In this document: piece after piece, positions 8,533-21,492 of the stretch
Layout: the number at the start of each line of letters is the position of its first letter
How positions within the stretch are numbered: position 1 is the stretch's first letter
Origin: Spirochaetota bacterium
Lineage (GTDB): Bacteria > Spirochaetota > Spirochaetia > Treponematales > UBA12059
Length of the DNA stretch: 35,251 bases
Direction of reading: 5' to 3'
Assembly (NCBI GenBank): GCA_018816345.1
Contig: JAHIWG010000013.1
Coordinates: forward strand, 1 to 35,251
The notes under the pieces: model-generated
Databases searched by the model: none
Told to the model about the DNA's origin: nothing
The model's input: the letters and a program-made list of their open reading frames with translations, nothing else
Made by a program: the position numbers and the translations under genes

Positions 8533-9891
8533 GTGGGGGCTAACGAAGCGCTTCGGGTAGCGTTCCGCACCTTCGGCTGCAAGCTTAACCAGGTCGAGAC
8601 TGAGACTCTGGCCGCGCGCTTCGAGGTCGCCGGCGCCTCTATCGTCGGTCCCGACGACGGCGCGGACCTCGTCGTGTTCAATACCTGCACCGTCACCAGC
8701 AAGGCGGAGCAGAAGGCCCGCCGCGAGATGCGCCTGGCCCTCCGCCGCAATCCCGACGCGGTAGCTGCGGTCACCGGCTGCTACGCCGAGCTTGACCCGG
8801 AGGCGCTCGCCGCCGTCGCCCCCCGGACCGTGGTCCTGCCCGGTAGCCGCAAGGACGCCCTCGGCGGCATGGCCGAGGCCTTGGTCGCGGCCCGCCTAGA
8901 GGGCCTCGACCTCCTGGACGAGCTTCGGCGCCTCGCCGCGGCCGCCTCCGGCGGTCTTCCCGACCCTTTCTCGTTCGTACCCGGCGAGGCTCGCTTCCGC
9001 TCCAGGGTGCAGCTCAAGGTCCAGGACGGCTGCGACAACCGTTGCGCGTACTGCCGCGTCTGCCTGGCCCGCGGGCGTTCCGTATCGCTCGATCCCGACG
9101 AGGCGCTACGCCGCGCGACCAGCCTCGCGGCCGCCGGCGTTCCCGAGATAGTCCTTACCGGCGTCAACCTCTCCCAGTACCGCTCAGGCGGCGTCGGTTT
9201 CCCCGGCCTGCTAGAGCTCCTCGTCAGGGGCGTTCCCTCGGCCGCCTTCCGCGTCTCCTCGTACGAGCCCGATCGCGCCGACGCCGCCTTCATGGGCGCG
9301 TTTTCCCTGCCCGGAGTCAGGCCTCACCTCCACCTGTCGGCTCAATCCGGCTCCGATAGGGTCCTCCGGGCCATGGGCCGCCGCTACGGCCGCGACGACG
9401 TCCTCAGGGCGGCGGAAGCCGCGCGCTCCGTTCGCGACGACCCGTTCCTAGGCGCGGACATTATAGTCGGCTTCCCCGGCGAGTCCGACGACGACTTCCG
9501 CGACACCGTAGGCCTCCTCGAGCTCATGCGCCCGGCCTGGGTACACGCCTTTACCTTCAGCCCGAGGCCGGGTACCCGAGCCTTCGACATGAAGCCCCGC
9601 GTACCCGAGCGCGTGGCGGTCGAGCGGGCGGCCGTCGTCCAAGCCATCGCCGATCGCGGCAAGCTCGAGTTCGCGCGCAGCCGGATAGGCAAGACGCTCG
9701 TCGCCGTCGTCGAGGACGGCGGCGACGAGGCCGTCCTCGGCGACGCGAGGCGCGTCTTCGCGACCTCGGCGGAGTACCTGAAGCTGGAGGTCCGCGGCGT
9801 CCCGGCGGGTTTCCACGGCTCGTGCGCCTGCAGGGTAATAGGCCTTTCGGACGGTGATGGCAGCGCCGATCTCGTTTCGATTTTTATTTAA
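8533..9891 (+). CDS. mtaB: tRNA N6-threonylcarbamoyladenosine(37) methylthiotransferase MtaB
   Basis: 452 residues. MtaB inserts a methylthio group at C2 of t6A37 in ANN-decoding tRNAs. The N-terminal UPF0004 domain carries the three cysteines for the auxiliary Fe-S cluster: C16 in FRTFGCKLNQVET (the MtaB form), C52 in NTCTVT and C83 in TGCYAE. The radical SAM cluster motif CxxxCxxC is C167-C171-C174 (CDNRCAYC). A TRAM-like tail follows from about residue 385. The likely start is GTG at 8533, one base after the TPR stop. No terminator is seen, and an AT-rich stretch follows. Confidence 0.93.
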   Translation: MGANEALRVAFRTFGCKLNQVETETLAARFEVAGASIVGPDDGADLVVFNTCTVTSKAEQKARREMRLALRRNPDAVAAVTGCYAELDPEALAAVAPRTVVLPGSRKDALGGMAEALVAARLEGLDLLDELRRLAAAASGGLPDPFSFVPGEARFRSRVQLKVQDGCDNRCAYCRVCLARGRSVSLDPDEALRRATSLAAAGVPEIVLTGVNLSQYRSGGVGFPGLLELLVRGVPSAAFRVSSYEPDRADAAFMGAFSLPGVRPHLHLSAQSGSDRVLRAMGRRYGRDDVLRAAEAARSVRDDPFLGADIIVGFPGESDDDFRDTVGLLELMRPAWVHAFTFSPRPGTRAFDMKPRVPERVAVERAAVVQAIADRGKLEFARSRIGKTLVAVVEDGGDEAVLGDARRVFATSAEYLKLEVRGVPAGFHGSCACRVIGLSDGDGSADLVSIFI

Positions 9892-9930
9892 CTAATTTGA
9901 TGTATTGGATATATTCTACAGTTGCTCCCC

Positions 9931-10012: not shown

Positions 10013-10813
10013 ATGAAACGGACTATCACGATCGTATTGACCGCGGCGGTCGCTCTCTCGATGACGGCTTGCGACGCGCTCGACGCTATCCTGCAGGTAA
10101 ACATTTTCGCGCCTTTGTACGAGGTCAGCGCGACTAAGATCGAAGATTCGAAGGGAGACGCTCAGGCCCTCCTCGAGCAATCCGAGAGCGACACGTTCTA
10201 CGAGACGCTCGCTGATCCTAAGAACGCGACCTTGAAGACCGAGGTCCTCGCGACGATCGACGCCGCCATAGCCGCGGCGACGACGCCGGCGGTTATCCAG
10301 GACCTGACGCTCCTCGGCGCCGAGATAGAGCTGAAGACGACGGGGGGCGACGAGGTCGTCAATAACGTCGCCGCGGTGCTCGTCGATCAGAGCGCCATAC
10401 AGGACCCCGTCTCGGGCGAATTGGATCCCGCGAGGCTCTTGACAGCCATCATGCCCGCGAACGTCGTCTCGAGCGACGGGACGGTTACGGACGCCGCCGC
10501 CTTCAAGGCGATAATCGACGGCTTCGTGGCCGCGGACGCGTATTACACGGCCCTCGGGACGAGCCTCGACGGCGGGACCTACGCCGATACGACGGTGAGC
10601 GCGGGCGCGGTCGCCCAGAGCGCCCTGGTATCCGCCATGATCGCCGGCATCACGCCTCCGCCCGGAGTCAGTTCCGGCGAGTACTTGCTCGACATCGTCA
10701 ACGGCGAGGCGGCCGCGCCCGCGGATTTCGCCTTCCCCGATATGGCGGCCGGGTCTCCCCTCGGCAACCTATTCACCGCCGCGGGCATCGATCTCGCGAC
10801 GCTAGCCTTCTAA
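10013..10813 (+). CDS. Ala-rich helical lipoprotein, first copy of a lipoprotein-barrel cassette
   Basis: 266 residues. A lipoprotein signal peptide ends at C20 (LSMTAC). The mature part is helical, acidic and alanine-rich with no known catalytic motif. I do not recognise a named family, but the start of the mature region (IFAPLYEVSATKIEDSKGDA, ALLEQ) resembles that of the lipoprotein at 12042, and both are followed by a UPF0164-type barrel, so they look like paralogues. An earlier GTG at 9968 is in frame, but AGGAGG just upstream of 10013 and the signal peptide fix the start. The next gene follows after ten bases with its own AAGGAGG. It may serve as a periplasmic partner or plug for the barrel, which is inference. 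Confidence 0.82.
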   Translation: MKRTITIVLTAAVALSMTACDALDAILQVNIFAPLYEVSATKIEDSKGDAQALLEQSESDTFYETLADPKNATLKTEVLATIDAAIAAATTPAVIQDLTLLGAEIELKTTGGDEVVNNVAAVLVDQSAIQDPVSGELDPARLLTAIMPANVVSSDGTVTDAAAFKAIIDGFVAADAYYTALGTSLDGGTYADTTVSAGAVAQSALVSAMIAGITPPPGVSSGEYLLDIVNGEAAAPADFAFPDMAAGSPLGNLFTAAGIDLATLAF

Positions 10814-10823
10814 GGAGGAAGCC

Positions 10824-11990
10824 ATGAAACGCACTATATCGGTAGTATCGATGCTCCTCCTGCTCGGAGGCGCGGTCTTCGCCCAGGAAGCGACGCGGCT
10901 CGACGCCGCGGCCCCCAAGGACGCCCGCACCATGGCGATGGGCGGCGCCTTCATCGCGATGAGCGAGGGCTACCAGAGCCTCTACGGCAACCCCGCGTCC
11001 TTCGCCGACAAGAAAGCCGAATTGACCCTTATCTCGATGACGCCATGGGTCTACGTAAGGCCCACTACCTCCAATATCGAGACGTTCCAGTCCATCGTAG
11101 GGGCGGGCGACGATACGGGCGCGATGATCGGCGGCATCTCCGACCTCGTGGCCGACAACGGCTTCGGCGGCGGCGTGTCCGCCGGCCTCGGCTGGGTAGG
11201 CAAGGGCCTCGGCCTCGGCGTCGTCGGCGGCGGCGAGGTCTACGTATCGGGCGAGAACCTGATCGGGGCGACCGGCACGCTCGACGGCTCGATGGCGGCC
11301 GTCGTCGGCATAGGAATACCCCTGCAGCTCGGGCCGTTCCGGCTCCAGGTGGGCGGCGACGTCAGGCCGTACCTGAGGATGACGGGCGACGTGGTCGCCG
11401 CGGGGCTCGTCGGGGGTTTACTCGGCAGCGGCTCGGGTTTCGATCCGATGTCCCTGCCGGTCGATCTCGGCTTCGGCCTCGCGGTCGACCTGGGAGCCAA
11501 GCTTGACCTCGGGAACCTGCTGTCGGTGGGACTGGCCATCCGCGATATATCCACGAAGCAGAACTTCTCGAGCACGACGCTCGGCGGCGCTCTTGAGAAG
11601 ATCCAGTCGGGCGATCTAGCGGCCGGCGCGAATCCCGTCGAATACGCCGCCCTGCCAAACATCACCCTCGGCGCGAGCCTGACGCCCATTCCGGTCGGGC
11701 TCCGGAAGCTCATCGACGTCACGGTCATCGCCGAGATCCAGGATCCCATTAGGGTGATCGTAGAGCAATCCACCCCGTGGAACCTATTCCACCTGGGCGT
11801 GGAGGCCGACCTCCTCGGGGGCCTCCTGGCGGTTCGCACGGGCCTCAACAAGGGCTGGATCAGCCTGGGCGCGGGGCTCGACCTGTTGATCATGGAAGTG
11901 AACGTAGCCGTCTTTACCGAGGAACTGGGACTGAAGCCCGGCTACCAGCCCAGGACGGGCATATCGGCGGAAGTGGCCATACGGTTCTGA
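10824..11990 (+). CDS. UPF0164/FadL-like outer-membrane barrel protein, cassette copy 1
   Basis: 388 residues with a signal peptide (1-20, cleavage after VFAQ). The body starts with the PorV/FadL-like signature ARTMAMGGAFIAMSEGYQSL followed by YGNPASFA, then alternating beta-strand sequence rich in Gly, to a C-terminal strand ending in aromatic F (AEVAIRF), as expected for an outer-membrane barrel. Spirochaetes carry several such proteins (UPF0164, for example the Treponema FadL-like set), proposed to import long-chain fatty acids or other hydrophobic nutrients. The substrate here is unknown. It is tightly coupled to the preceding lipoprotein. Confidence 0.85.
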   Translation: MKRTISVVSMLLLLGGAVFAQEATRLDAAAPKDARTMAMGGAFIAMSEGYQSLYGNPASFADKKAELTLISMTPWVYVRPTTSNIETFQSIVGAGDDTGAMIGGISDLVADNGFGGGVSAGLGWVGKGLGLGVVGGGEVYVSGENLIGATGTLDGSMAAVVGIGIPLQLGPFRLQVGGDVRPYLRMTGDVVAAGLVGGLLGSGSGFDPMSLPVDLGFGLAVDLGAKLDLGNLLSVGLAIRDISTKQNFSSTTLGGALEKIQSGDLAAGANPVEYAALPNITLGASLTPIPVGLRKLIDVTVIAEIQDPIRVIVEQSTPWNLFHLGVEADLLGGLLAVRTGLNKGWISLGAGLDLLIMEVNVAVFTEELGLKPGYQPRTGISAEVAIRF

Positions 11991-12041
11991 TGAAAACCGG
12001 TCGCCGCGCCGATACTAGATACGAGAAAAGGAGCGGCGACG

Positions 12042-12764
12042 ATGAAAGAACGTAGATCGAGAGCCGCGGCTACGGCCGCGGCCTTCACGGGCATCATGCT
12101 CCTGTCCGCCTGCCAGCAATTCTTCACGACCACCCTGGCCGCTCCCTTGGCGCGCGCGTCGTATACTATCCCGGCTGACCTTTCGGTAGCCGACGCCTCC
12201 GCGCTCCTCGAGGAGGCCTTGGCCTCGGGGGACGCCGAGATGGCGGCCGCCCTCGTGACGCCCCTGCTCGCCGCCGCCGCCGCCGCCGCCGAGGCGGATC
12301 CCGCTAGCGCGGCATACCAGGAAGCCGCGGCCGCCCTCCTGGACGCCTCGATCCTGGCGTCCGGCGTCGGGCCCGCGATGACGACCTTGGCGACCGGGTT
12401 GCTGGGCGGCGACGTATCGACGGTGACCGAGGAGCAGGCCGCGGCGATGCTCTCCGCGTTCGACGGCGTCTCCCTCGACGATACCGCCGAGAGCGCGCTT
12501 CTCCTCCTCGCGGCCTATCCGCCTGCCGATATCAGCTCCGAGGACGCCTATGCCGCGGGACTAGCGCTCCTCGCCGACTCGTATAGCGACGCCGGCGGAT
12601 CGCTTTCGAATCCGGCTAGCCTGTCGGCGGAAGACCTTACGGCGCTCGAATCGGATCCTTCGTATCTAGTCGGACTGTCGTTGCTTATGCTCGGCGCGTC
12701 CATCGACGCCGCGAGCGGGACGCCGAGCGTCCTCGGCGGACTCCTGGACGGATTTTCCCTATAG
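12042..12764 (+). CDS. Ala-rich helical lipoprotein, second copy of the cassette
   Basis: 240 residues with a lipoprotein signal ending at C24 (LLSAC). The mature part is extremely rich in Ala, Leu, Ser and Asp and helical. It includes a run of seven Ala encoded by an uninterrupted GCC track at 12270-12290. It resembles the lipoprotein at 10013 in length, composition and position before a barrel gene (compare LAAPLARASYTIPADLSVAD with the first copy's IFAPLYEVSATKIE). An AAAGGAG ribosome-binding site precedes ATG 12042. The function is unknown. Confidence 0.8.
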   Translation: MKERRSRAAATAAAFTGIMLLSACQQFFTTTLAAPLARASYTIPADLSVADASALLEEALASGDAEMAAALVTPLLAAAAAAAEADPASAAYQEAAAALLDASILASGVGPAMTTLATGLLGGDVSTVTEEQAAAMLSAFDGVSLDDTAESALLLLAAYPPADISSEDAYAAGLALLADSYSDAGGSLSNPASLSAEDLTALESDPSYLVGLSLLMLGASIDAASGTPSVLGGLLDGFSL

Positions 12765-12835
12765 ATGGAATTCATATACGCATGGCGTCGAGCCGATGAT
12801 GTTGATAGCATGAAACTGCCCTGCGAGGTCCGGCC

Positions 12836-13969
12836 ATGAAACGATACGCATTGCTCTGCGCCGCGATGGCGCTGGTACAGTTCGCGCACGCTCAGACGGT
12901 GGAGCCGTTCTCGTTGCCTTCGGCCCGGATGGCGGCCGTCGGCGGTCCGCACGCCGCGAGCGTCTCCGGCGTAGACGCCATATTCGAGAATCCGGCCGGC
13001 TTCGCGGCCGAGACCGCTGAGCTAAGCGTATCGGCCCTCGTCGCGAACGCCTCGGGGCCCGTCTTCGATATAGCGGGCATGCTGGTCGGCGGATCAGACA
13101 TAATGGCCGCGTTGCCCGCCCTCTTCGACGCCGGCGGCCGGCTGTATATGCAGGCGGACATCCTCGGCCCGCTGGCCTTCGGCTACGCGGGCAAGGGCCT
13201 CGGCTTCGGCCTGTTCAACCGGTCGGTCGTGACCCTCAACGCCGCTTCCCTATTATCGGTAGCCTACTCGGTATCGGAGGAGATAATGCTCGCCGGGGGG
13301 TACGCTTACCGTTTCACGCTAGGCGAGAGGCAGGTCCTGGACGCGGGAATCATGCCTAAGGGCTTCATCCGCGCTACCGTCGGCCAGAGAGCCTCCATTA
13401 CCGAGATCCTCGCGATGGTGAGCGACCCGACGGCGGTCCTCGGCAGCCCCTTCTCCATGACGTCGGGCGTCGGCTTCGACGTGGGCGTCCGGTGGTCGTA
13501 CGACGACGTCATAGCCCTCGGCCTCGTGTGCCGCGACGCGTACTCTCCCGCCATGGTCACGAGCTACGATAACTATACGGCCTTCGCGGAGAGCCCTAGC
13601 ACCGGCTCGTCGGCGTACGCCGTGGTGCCCGCAGACCTGGCGTTCGGAGTCGCCTACGAGGCGCCCTTCGCCATCCTGAACGCGCTCGGGGCGGACCTCG
13701 TCGTGCTAGTCGACTACGTCGACATACTCGACCTTTTCTCTACGGTTCCGCGCAACCCGATACTCAACGTGAGGGTCGGCCTCGAGCTGACCCTGCTCGA
13801 CATCCTGTCGCTCAGGGCGGGAATCAAGGACGCGCTCCCGACCGCCGGATTCGGCATCGACCTGTCGGCCTTCTCATTCTCATTGGCAATGTACGGGCGG
13901 GAACTGGGCATAGAGCCGGGAGCCCGGCCCGTGTTCAACCTGCTCGTGGCGTTCGACTTCAGGTACTGA
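12836..13969 (+). CDS. UPF0164/FadL-like outer-membrane barrel protein, cassette copy 2
   Basis: 377 residues with a signal peptide (1-19, cleavage after AHAQ). It opens with SARMAAVGGPHAASVSGVDA and FENPAGFA, the same signature as the barrel at 10824. It ends similarly: a block ELGIEPGARP matching ELGLKPGYQP, then a final strand with terminal aromatic Y (FDFRY). The two barrels are therefore homologous but well diverged. It is preceded by the second lipoprotein and followed by a GC-rich hairpin and the tRNA-Lys promoter. Confidence 0.83.
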   Translation: MKRYALLCAAMALVQFAHAQTVEPFSLPSARMAAVGGPHAASVSGVDAIFENPAGFAAETAELSVSALVANASGPVFDIAGMLVGGSDIMAALPALFDAGGRLYMQADILGPLAFGYAGKGLGFGLFNRSVVTLNAASLLSVAYSVSEEIMLAGGYAYRFTLGERQVLDAGIMPKGFIRATVGQRASITEILAMVSDPTAVLGSPFSMTSGVGFDVGVRWSYDDVIALGLVCRDAYSPAMVTSYDNYTAFAESPSTGSSAYAVVPADLAFGVAYEAPFAILNALGADLVVLVDYVDILDLFSTVPRNPILNVRVGLELTLLDILSLRAGIKDALPTAGFGIDLSAFSFSLAMYGRELGIEPGARPVFNLLVAFDFRY

Positions 13970-14051: not shown

Positions 14052-14124
14052 GAGCCGCTAGCTCATTCGGTAGAGCAACGCCCTTTTAAGGCGTGGGTGC
14101 GGAGTTCGAACCTCCGGCGGCTCA
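14052..14124 (+). tRNA. tRNA-Lys (anticodon TTT)
   Basis: 73 bases fold into a full cloverleaf. The acceptor GAGCCGC pairs with GCGGCTC, the D stem is GCTC/GAGC, and the anticodon stem ACGCC/GGCGT holds loop CTTTTAA (anticodon TTT). The T stem CGGAG/CTCCG holds TTCGAAC, and the discriminator is A. CCA is not encoded. A T5 run follows directly and may end transcription. Confidence 0.95.
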
Positions 14125-14295: not shown

Positions 14296-15198
14296 CTACT
14301 CCACGTCGATAAGCTTGATGACGCAGCCCAGGCTCGCCTGGAAGATGAACGACGTCGCGGCCGGGCTGCGCCCCGCGAGCAGGCCGGTGCCGAAGACGTA
14401 GACGCCGCTATCGAGGCCCGCGACCAGTGTGAGCCTCGGGTTCAGTATCGCGCTTACCGTGGCGCCGAGCACCACGGCGCCGAGGCCGTCCGCCGTGGAA
14501 TCGGAGTAGGTGCGCGTCATGCTCCTGTAGCCGAGCTCGGCGAAGACGCGATACGGAGCGCCTTTCTGATGCACGTCTACCGAGAAGAGGTAGTTAGTGG
14601 AGCCGTCGACGAGCGGGTCGCCCGTCGAGACTATCCTCGTGTAGCGTTTAGTTATCATCGAGACCGAGCATATCGCGTTATACACGTACCATCCCGCCGA
14701 TAGTTCGGATAGTTCCTGCGAATAATCTCCGGCCGCCGCTAGGCCCGCTCCCATCGAGGACTCGGCCTTTGCCGAGAAGAACGCGATCCCGGGAGCCTCG
14801 AGCTTGAAGCCGATGTTGATCCCCGCCTTGAGCGGGCTCGCAACCGAGTTGAAGGCTCCGACCATGGGGCCCGCGCTGATGCTCGCTATGCCCGTCTCGT
14901 AGGTGACTATGCCCCTGACTATGTTCCTGAGGACCGTGTCGGTCTCGTACTCGGCCACGAGCGAGAAGCCGTCGCCCAGGTCCTCGGCGAAGGCGGCGCG
15001 GCCGCCGTATAGCCACAGGTTAGCCGGGTATACGGCCTCGGCCATCGGCGACTCTCCGGCCCAGGGCAGGCCCAGGTTGCCGAAGAAGGCGCCCGCCTCT
15101 ATGTCGAGCGAATAGGCGGGGACGGACAGCGCCATGGCGAGGACCGCCGCGTAGAGTATCGTCGATTCGGTCCCAAAGCGCTTCGGTCGTATCGTCAT
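14296..15198 (-). CDS. Exported beta-rich protein, probable outer-membrane barrel
   Basis: 300 residues with a signal peptide (about 1-30, cleavage near AYSL). It continues as alternating hydrophobic/polar strands with many Gly and aromatic residues, for example FSLVAEYETDTVL, YRVFAELGYRSMTRTYS and GAVVLGATVSAILN, ending FQASLGCVIKLIDVE. No named family is recognised. The start has AAGGAG a few bases upstream. It lies 31 bases after the barrel-like gene at 15230-16420 on the same strand, so the pair is probably one operon. An outer-membrane location is inferred from strand pattern only. Confidence 0.78.
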   Translation of the reverse strand: MTIRPKRFGTESTILYAAVLAMALSVPAYSLDIEAGAFFGNLGLPWAGESPMAEAVYPANLWLYGGRAAFAEDLGDGFSLVAEYETDTVLRNIVRGIVTYETGIASISAGPMVGAFNSVASPLKAGINIGFKLEAPGIAFFSAKAESSMGAGLAAAGDYSQELSELSAGWYVYNAICSVSMITKRYTRIVSTGDPLVDGSTNYLFSVDVHQKGAPYRVFAELGYRSMTRTYSDSTADGLGAVVLGATVSAILNPRLTLVAGLDSGVYVFGTGLLAGRSPAATSFIFQASLGCVIKLIDVE

Positions 15199-15229: not shown

Positions 15230-16420
15230 TCAGAAAGCGGTCGAGATGCCTACCGTCGGCATGAACATGCCGTACCACGGGTCGGGGAACGGGAAGGCCC
15301 TGATCGCCAGCCGGATGTCCCAGCGGACGCCGTTCCGGATAGTCTGCAGGTAGGGCGCCGCGTCCATGGTCAGGGTATTCGTGTCGAGGTTGGGATTGTA
15401 CGACAGCTCCGCCTCGACTCCGCTCCTGAACGAGCCTTCGGTTATGGCGCCGAATCCTATGTCGAAACGGAATTCCATGGCTCCTGACTCGCTCGTCGCT
15501 CGCTGCAGGTAGTAGGCGGGGTGGAAGAAGAGGCTGAGGACGAGCTCGCCTGGGCCGAAATCGACCCGCGGCTCGAACATGAAATAGAGCATGTCCATGC
15601 GGAACGCCTCGGTCGGGTCCCAGCGCGGGATGCCTATCTGCGCGTAGAAGTCGCCTATGGCTCCCGTATCGAAGTAGAAGAGCAGCCCCGCGCGGTATAC
15701 GCCTACGGCGGAGACCGGGAAGGACGCCCCGGCGAAGGCTTCAAGCTTGACGTTGTCGGCGTCCACGAGGGCTCGGGCGTCGAGCGAGTAGTACCCCGCG
15801 CCTAGCCACGAGTCCTGGTACGCGTAGAGATAGGGCCGGATGGATTCCAGCGGATACGAGAAGCGCAGGCCGGTGCCGTAGGCCTCGTGGAGGCCGTCGT
15901 AGCGACGGCTGGGATCGCCTCCTATGCCGTCGGGGTAGTACATATAGCCGCGGAACTTAGTGGCGAAATCGCTGGCGCCGAAAAGCGTCGTGAAGTCCGA
16001 GCCGGAGCAGAACGTATCGAGGTGGCCTACGAACGTCGCCATTTCCAGCGGCGTGCCGAATAGCCCCTTTACCTGAATCGCCACCGTCCGTAGCGACAGT
16101 CCCGTCGCGGCCTCGAGGTTAGAGGCCGACTCGGCCAGGTCGGCCAGGGTCGCGTCGGCGGGTACGCTCGTAAGCGACTCGGCGGCGCGGAGGTATTCCT
16201 CGACCGCAGCGGTCCTGAATCCGAGCTTGAACCATGCGTCGAATTTAGCCCCGCCCTCTATCAGCATATCTATGCCGACTCGCGTAGAGAGCTCGAAAGC
16301 GCCCGCGGCGTTGAGGCGGCCGTTCGTGAGGAGGCCGATATACGGTATAGACAGGTCCGCGCCGAAGGCCGAGGCGGCGACGCAGGCTAGCATCAGGACA
16401 ATGGCGCTTTTCTTAGGCAT
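15230..16420 (-). CDS. Exported beta-rich protein, probable outer-membrane barrel
   Basis: 396 residues with a signal peptide (1-20, ending ASAFGA). The mature protein is rich in aromatic residues and amphipathic strands (FRMDMLYFMFEPRVDFG, LVLSLFFHPAYYLQ, RWDIRLAIRAF) and ends in a strand with terminal F (VGISTAF), as outer-membrane barrels often do. One helical insert lies at about residues 75-110. I do not recognise the family; it lacks the UPF0164 N-terminal signature of the two barrels upstream. ATG at 16420 has GGGAG seven bases upstream. It is the first gene of a probable two-gene operon. Confidence 0.78.
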   Translation of the reverse strand: MPKKSAIVLMLACVAASAFGADLSIPYIGLLTNGRLNAAGAFELSTRVGIDMLIEGGAKFDAWFKLGFRTAAVEEYLRAAESLTSVPADATLADLAESASNLEAATGLSLRTVAIQVKGLFGTPLEMATFVGHLDTFCSGSDFTTLFGASDFATKFRGYMYYPDGIGGDPSRRYDGLHEAYGTGLRFSYPLESIRPYLYAYQDSWLGAGYYSLDARALVDADNVKLEAFAGASFPVSAVGVYRAGLLFYFDTGAIGDFYAQIGIPRWDPTEAFRMDMLYFMFEPRVDFGPGELVLSLFFHPAYYLQRATSESGAMEFRFDIGFGAITEGSFRSGVEAELSYNPNLDTNTLTMDAAPYLQTIRNGVRWDIRLAIRAFPFPDPWYGMFMPTVGISTAF

Positions 16421-21418: not shown

Positions 21419-21492
21419 GGGCGGTTAGCTCAGTTGGTTAGAGCACCAGTATGACACGCTGGGGGTCACAAGTTCGACTCTTGTACCGCCCA
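21419..21492 (+). tRNA. tRNA-Val (anticodon GAC)
   Basis: 74 bases form a complete cloverleaf. GGGCGGT pairs with ACCGCCC, the D stem is GCTC/GAGC, and the anticodon stem CCAGT/GCTGG (one T-G pair) holds loop ATGACAC, anticodon GAC. The T stem ACAAG/CTTGT holds TTCGACT, and the discriminator is A. CCA is not encoded. Confidence 0.95.

Follow-up and report, generated by a model that had tools for sequence, protein, structure and literature searches.

Does a lipoprotein encoded directly in front of an outer-membrane barrel work together with that barrel, or are the two genes only neighbours? The question is raised by a cluster of four genes on contig JAHIWG010000013.1 of the Spirochaetota assembly GCA_018816345.1 (Treponematales; UBA12059), of which positions 1 to 35,251 of the forward strand (35,251 nucleotides) were analysed and are called the window here (contig C105 of a source genome of 3.8 Mb in 175 contigs). 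The cluster lies on the + strand and consists of the lipoprotein gene L1 (10013..10813, 266 amino acids, lipobox SMTAC), the barrel gene B1 (10824..11990, 388 amino acids), the second lipoprotein gene L2 (12042..12764, 240 amino acids, lipobox LLSAC), and the second barrel gene B2 (12836..13969, 377 amino acids). These are four consecutive open reading frames (ORFs), which agrees with a preliminary description of this DNA that had noted two lipoprotein/barrel pairs in the same order and on the same strand. The spacers L1-B1, B1-L2, and L2-B2 are 10, 51, and 71 bases, and with such short gaps between consecutive + strand genes the cluster looks like one operon; a scan for promoters and terminators gave consensus matches only, with one promoter-like site at 9888-9915. 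In many spirochaetes, a lipoprotein gene and the FadL-like barrel gene downstream of it seem to act as one unit. For the window, we favour the reading that each lipoprotein and the barrel behind it make up one two-part outer-membrane unit and that the two cassettes are paralogues with different cargo, and we hold this reading tentatively, at slightly below even.

The pairing was analysed by whole-genome profile searches in 96 genomes, namely the source genome and 95 relatives. The L1 and L2 profiles were built from barrel-adjacent genes, while the genome-wide search was free to match anywhere. The L1 profile gave 41 rows below E 1e-10, representing 40 genes, and 37 of these 40 lay directly before a B1 gene or a fragment of one; the remaining three (G001, G003 C68, and G008) end at a contig edge on the barrel side. 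The L2 profile gave 40 rows below E 1e-5, representing 38 genes (two were split over contigs), and all 38 lay directly before B2. Lipoprotein homologues lying mostly away from barrels, which would speak against the pairing, were thus not found. Quantitative analysis of presence showed that L1 and B1 occurred together in 37 genomes, L1 alone in 2, B1 alone in 6, and neither in 51, and the corresponding numbers for L2 and B2 were 38, 0, 11, and 47. The phi coefficient of joint presence was 0.83 for L1-B1 and 0.79 for L2-B2, compared with 0.17 and 0.47 for the non-cognate combinations L1-B2 and L2-B1; the presence labels behind these values were set by hand from the listed matches, and phi ignores phylogeny and genome incompleteness. 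L1 follows B1, and L2 follows B2, separately in presence and absence. A genome of 1.1 Mb in the same order (G032) matches neither the B1 nor the B2 profile at E 1e-8. One genome (G003) carries two distinct L1 genes, C68:85-858 and C137:25838-26407, both at contig ends, which represent either a third cassette or contamination.

The pairing extends beyond the order of the source genome. In a phylum sample of 296 genomes, the B2 profile matched 90 (E 1e-6) and the L2 profile matched 15 (E 1e-5). Forty regions were fetched, 28 of them outside the order and from 13 families; good matches in G134, G138, G147, and G208, the second match of G122, and lower-scoring ones stayed unfetched. A contig end truncates four of the 28 out-of-order loci (L159, L161, L170, and L195), and a same-strand lipoprotein gene was found just upstream of the barrel in all 24 assessable loci, which belong to 12 families (L157 was assessed through its second barrel). 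The upstream frames were read by eye besides the script output because the lipobox rule misses boxes like IPSC. Another 38 named B2 loci, nearly all from metagenome-assembled genomes of Spirochaetota and many named Treponema, were retrieved by a search with aligned B2 relatives. One of these genomes, named Gracilinema caldarium, has B2 with a contig end running through the ORF upstream. Five of them are cut at a contig end, and the lipoprotein was present in 30 of the other 33 and absent in three; the named loci lie partly on the same contigs as the fetched ones, and L132 was counted via L097 on the same contig. Other genes of the same loci served as a control. An ORF with a lipobox ended between -70 and +260 bases from the start of 92 of 125 barrels but of only 18 of 403 other genes (99 loci, 8 edge barrels excluded, control genes of at least 250 amino acids), and this count still misses the lipoproteins of L087, L097, L174, L185, and L191. 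A cruder count with a greedy gene set, which miscalls several known lipoproteins, gave 69/112 vs 23/541. Because the loci share ancestry, the P values of such neighbour counts are not independent tests.

These loci also bear on the simplest alternative, that the genes are co-transcribed or co-inherited through their position behind the tRNA methylthiotransferase gene mtaB and do not act on each other. Inside the order, the cassette indeed usually stands behind mtaB, since an mtaB-like ORF is present in 47 of 71 loci and is the usual upstream neighbour there, and several genomes do without the lipoprotein. However, no mtaB-like gene was found in any of the 28 out-of-order loci, where the pair was nevertheless present in 24 of 24 assessable cases. 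It also argues against mere neighbourhood that L1 is missing from genomes that lack B1 and, independently, L2 from those that lack B2, and that barrels without a lipoprotein stand on longer branches (see below). We therefore consider this explanation improbable.

What kind of barrel is paired with the lipoprotein? B1 and B2 are homologous over their full length (23% identity, E 7e-14), and this end-to-end alignment includes the N-terminal NPA block and the ELG-PG-P block, so the shared N-terminal signature and the shared C-terminal block of the preliminary description were both found. Window B2 scored 18.5 bits against TraF_2 (cut-off 25), and window B1 scored 10.5 bits against DUF5723 (cut-off 26.8). 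Against PorV_fam (NF033709), the two window barrels scored 30.9 and 28.0 bits (E 2e-7 and 2e-6), with the N-terminal block matching best, and both stay under the curated cut-off of 90 bits; the window barrels are therefore like PorV/PorQ of type IX secretion in the N-terminal hatch block and unlike them in overall score (31 and 28 bits against 90). Among the aligned family members, matches at E up to 0.1 were obtained with TraF_2 for 18/32 B2 and 11/32 B1, with DUF5723 for 10/32 B1, and with FadL (Toluene_X) for 6/32 B2, the best of these at 9e-4. In the sequence search against solved structures, the B2 profile had PorV on top at E 0.07, and the B1 profile had no match up to E 1.

The hatch asparagine is invariant across the alignments of B1 (A3) and B2 (A4), whose members were selected with a pattern in which the NPA proline is fixed and four residues are allowed at the asparagine. 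A3 holds 32 of 46 B1 rows, without ten tandem second copies (B1') and the rows of L065, L093, L094, and L105, and A4 holds 32 of 35 B2 rows, without L101, L110, and L112. Ten more barrel frames had been excluded beforehand as fragments, as lacking the motif pattern, or as lacking a start, and one divergent B1 gene (L066) without the hatch motif was also kept out of the alignment. The NPA motif stands at median mature positions 34 and 33 in the two families (ranges 33-37 and 22-37), counted with a simple A|QDE cleavage rule that recognised a site in 23 of 32 members per family. In E. coli FadL, the NPA hatch lies at mature position 33. Window B1 with GNPA and window B2 with ENPA thus carry the Asn-Pro-Ala near mature position 33 that marks FadL / OMPP1 proteins, and from these sequence features, we read both as FadL-superfamily barrels. 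With the hatch and an N-terminus of normal length, each resembles a channel that passes hydrophobic compounds.

UPF0164 comprises spirochaete FadL-like barrels, and the preliminary description had given B1 and B2 this label. It had to be dropped, as the UPF0164 profile (PF03687, gathering score 21.4 bits) gave no match at E 1 for either window barrel. Over the aligned relatives, it matched one of 32 B1 (E 0.038) and none of 32 B2 at E 0.1, which makes one of 64 members in total. A single PF03687 gene was found in the source genome; it lies on another contig (C24, L117:4289-5566) and, unlike B1 and B2, has no neighbouring lipoprotein gene.

Are the two lipoproteins related to each other? BLASTP of L1 against L2 found no similarity (E 3.4). 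Comparison of the two profiles (31 members each) by hhalign gave 96% probability with the signal peptide included, 77% (P 2e-5) when the comparison started at the lipid cysteine, and 19.5% (P 0.001) without the first 14-15 mature residues, while 30 column shuffles used as null all had P of at least 0.55. The resemblance of L1 and L2 that had been noted from the sequence is thus seen by profiles and not by BLASTP, and an absence of any profile similarity, which would also have spoken against related pairs, was not found. Lipoproteins that occupy this gene position in other families served as a stricter null: groups P and Q gave P 0.13-0.5 against both L1 and L2, and a two-member group (R) gave P 4e-4 against L1 and 0.017 against L2, which means that P values of such size arise also for groups of uncertain kinship. 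Among the weak matches (E 1e-5 to 0.01) of the L1 profile, 3 of 11 rows were L2 genes (G090, G068, and G015, the last a signal-part fragment of the gene), and among those of the L2 profile, 2 of 7 rows were L1 genes (G015 and G020); the remaining rows were other genes, several matched over the signal part alone. AlphaFold2 models of L1 and L2 are all-helical, with a mean predicted local distance difference test (pLDDT) score of 90.7 and 91.9, and their first halves hold a similar four-helix run. L1 and L2 are therefore likely remote homologues, with the support confined to the first half of the proteins. Since the lipoproteins lie beside barrels and the two profiles resemble each other, the pairing is real.

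The stretch just after the lipid cysteine was also compared. Within mature L2, conservation is highest over the 15 residues that follow the cysteine (0.67 vs 0.38), and window L2 (12042..12764, + strand) has the conserved tail CQQFFTT immediately behind its lipid cysteine. In L1, the same stretch had 0.52 vs 0.39, and other stretches of L1 are equally conserved. At least two acidic residues within the first six positions behind the cysteine were counted in 8 of 30 L1 and 1 of 30 L2 (one row per alignment was unassigned); window L1 has two and window L2 has none. Lipoproteins at the same position outside the order had weak TPR matches in 6 of 10 scanned, all under the cut-off. Those of L158, L160, L162, L164-L168, L171, L175, and L181 have common short tails after the cysteine, e.g., C-x-x-x-N-x-F-S, and some of them have weak TPR repeats; their homology to L1/L2 could not be shown. 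A single phylum-wide lipoprotein family could likewise not be shown by profile comparison.

Another question is the age of the duplication. The barrel tree (118 rows, IQ-TREE short search, only the Shimodaira-Hasegawa-like approximate likelihood ratio test as support, midpoint root) was calculated without the rows of L101, L105, L110, and L112 and without short rows. It placed all 45 B1 rows together with two barrels from other orders (support 97), and then with further class-level relatives (98), and B2 with its relatives formed a clade at 100. The B1' copies arose within B1. Outside the order and within the same class, one genome (G319) carries a B1-type barrel, L2, and B2 consecutively, so the split of B1 and B2 predates the order. 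A tandem duplication had been suggested for the window, but a recent one is ruled out because B1 and B2 form separate supported clades that extend beyond the order. On the tree, the cassette duplication is ancient and the two cassettes are old paralogues. The four B1 without a lipoprotein had a distance of 1.79-2.30 from the base of their clade, compared with 0.83-1.56 for 30 partnered B1 (P 2e-5), and the six B2 without a lipoprotein had 1.73-2.61, compared with a median of 1.47 (range 1.23-2.73) for 39 partnered B2 (P 0.001). The tandem B1' copies are likewise longer-branched (median 1.78). This test was devised after the tree had been seen, relatedness was not corrected for, the six B2 include three near-copies, and the B1 of L097 was excluded. 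The longer branches of lone barrels would fit release from a binding partner, and a generally relaxed function would fit too.

How could the two parts work together? In T. pallidum, two subgroups of FadL-like proteins have a helical, TPR-containing domain fused to their C-terminus, and the authors suggest that this domain may hand cargo to a periplasmic carrier system, with the transfer to the periplasm remaining to be determined and the FadLs proposed as vaccine candidates (PMC8407342). As described there, TP0548, TP0859, and TP0865 are like B1 and B2 in being FadL-type barrels of a spirochaete whose hatch is NPA or NAA, and like the lipoprotein-barrel pairs in having the barrel linked to an alpha-helical, TPR-bearing, and presumably periplasmic module. 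They differ in carrying the helical part as a C-terminal fusion instead of having it as a lipoprotein of its own (PMC8407342). In Bacteroidota, BamG-BamH and BamG2-BamH2 also combine a FadL-family barrel with a lipoprotein, the latter pair in a putative operon, and the conserved lipidated N-terminal tail of BamH binds the BamG barrel (PMC12578637 and PMC12611786). From the helical domains of the T. pallidum FadLs, the tail binding of BamG-BamH, and the tail conservation of L2, we propose a docked lipoprotein that receives cargo or takes part in gating. The barrel would be a channel of the FadL type that has the NPA motif as its hatch, and the lipoprotein would dock on it via the conserved tail just after the lipidated cysteine. 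The helical body of the lipoprotein would then take hydrophobic cargo from the barrel on the periplasmic side, or help to gate it, and the two cassettes would be old paralogues retained for different cargo. The cargo of such a two-part complex would probably be hydrophobic ligands. A narrower form of this proposal, in which a helical TPR-like lipoprotein plugs the lateral opening of a Spirochaetota FadL-type barrel by its lipidated tail, as a unit widely kept in the phylum and duplicated to two specialised cassettes in the lineage of the source genome, is possible, though we lean towards doubting it. The same degree of doubt applies to its corollary, that the unit persists in lineages whose lipoprotein has been exchanged for another sequence or has diverged past recognition.

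The Bacteroidota pairs, however, also give the main rival, in which the lipoprotein is an assembly or machinery partner that folds, stabilises, or positions the barrel as LptE does, or in which both proteins are accessory parts of the BAM machinery like BamG-BamH. According to PMC12578637 and PMC12611786, the FadL-family BamG binds its lipoprotein via a conserved lipidated N-terminal tail and BamG2-BamH2 is encoded in a putative operon, and the conservation of L2 peaks at the same place, the tail after the cysteine. The longer branches of lone barrels would fit lost stabilisation as well. On the other hand, the N-terminal extension of about 10 residues with which BamG fills its lateral opening seems to be missing in B1 and B2, judged from the NPA median of 33-34 against position 33 in FadL and with BamG compared by its description. 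BamH lies at the cell surface and carries an acidic signal (PMC12578637, PMC12611786), and here acidic residues after the cysteine, counted as above, were seen in a minority of the lipoproteins (8/30 L1, with that of the window among them, and 1/30 L2). Moreover, 33 of the 96 related genomes, some of them incomplete, match neither barrel profile at E 1e-8, unlike what is expected for an essential BAM part. We regard an assembly or BAM-like role as rather unlikely.

Several results weigh against the two-part unit, and the first of them are exceptions to the pairing. B2 was present without a detected L2 in 11 of 49 B2 genomes, and B1 without a detected L1 in 6 of 43, although some of these partnerless genomes reflect contig ends or a divergent lipoprotein that the profile missed. 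The genus g12 had B2 without L2 in all five genomes. In three of its four fetched loci (L108, L192, and L193), mtaB stands directly before B2, and in the fourth (L109), neither a lipoprotein nor mtaB was found within 900 bases. The arrangement with mtaB directly before B2 was also seen in G084, G045, and G080 and in the named loci L151, L154, and L156. The B1 genes of G012, G013, G009, and G039 have no L1. Ten loci (L080, L081, L083, and L086-L092) have one lipoprotein followed by two B1-type barrels, with L2-B2 missing, and the second barrel (B1') has no lipoprotein of its own. At the level of the proteins, none of the Pfam/NCBIfam families attained its curated cut-off for window B1 or B2. 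Homology to L1/L2 could not be shown for two groups of same-position lipoproteins from distant families (P and Q, 4 and 7 members; P 0.13-0.5), and no Pfam TPR match was found in window L1/L2 or as a family match of the 31-member alignments. For the L1 and L2 models, Foldseek returned nothing with an E value as low as 0.001. The best VIA matches were within the common helical range of the tool: for L2, Z 9.2 with a root-mean-square deviation (rmsd) of 4.2 over 129 aligned residues, and for L1, Z 7.0 with rmsd 4.1 over 101. The mirror-tree analysis of the 14 genomes with all four genes gave partial r 0.61 for L1-B1 vs 0.49 for L1-B2 and 0.37 for L2-B2 vs 0.25 for L2-B1, which weakly favours the cognate pairs, and dropping one genome flips the sign of both cognate differences.

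The VIA lists gave designed repeats and natural TPR-like proteins for L2, e.g., BamD (Z 7.3, rmsd 4.1, 133 aligned), and mostly 14-3-3 and other helical proteins for L1. A sequence search of the PDB gave designed repeats (best E 0.004) and other weak matches for the L2 profile, and matches of E 0.3 or worse for the L1 profile.

The lone barrels and the loci with one lipoprotein and two barrels rule out a strict one-to-one pairing. The preliminary description had claimed such a pairing, and it was right about the pairing itself, which is found more widely than the window in other orders and families, but not about its strictness; lipoprotein-barrel pairing is a rule and not a law. Overall, its observation was partly confirmed, and its reading of a two-part uptake system was partly supported. 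The same exceptions bear on a further alternative, that the barrel carries its own lipoprotein to the cell surface, as Slam does for client lipoproteins. The genes are adjacent, and surface lipoproteins are a hallmark of spirochaetes, which would suit such an export role. However, a narrow hatch-plugged FadL-type barrel is unlikely to serve as a protein channel, the genus g12 keeps the barrel without a lipoprotein in front, and the L1-B1-B1' loci pair one lipoprotein with two barrels, so we consider export very improbable. We thus keep to the two-part unit of lipoprotein and barrel as the favoured, tentative reading.

Lipoprotein-barrel pairs, including those of FadL-type barrels, are already known elsewhere. 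In titles and abstract openings, with preprints and most subscription journals outside the coverage, no spirochaete lipoprotein-barrel pair was described, and the word stems spirochaet and spirochete are absent from the main texts of PMC12578637 and PMC12611786. The two-part reading bears on the uptake of fatty acids and other hydrophobic nutrients by spirochaetes and on the requirements of their FadL-type barrels for function. If a lipoprotein partner is conserved across much of the phylum, it would offer a concrete protein for study, and if the reading is true, the spirochaete FadL-type barrels would be linked with BamG-BamH of Bacteroidota, a pair that was solved recently.

The surroundings of the cluster were also annotated. 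Upstream and outside the unit, mtaB lies at 8533..9891 on the + strand, with TIGR01579 above the cut-off. On the - strand behind the cluster, two ORFs (14296-15198 and 15230-16420) have signal-like N-termini and, by eye, outer-membrane-like sequence; they gave zero Pfam/NCBIfam matches at E up to 1. A tRNA-Lys (ttt) gene lies directly behind B2 at 14052-14124, and a tRNA-Val and a tRNA-Phe were found further downstream at 21419 and 26648.

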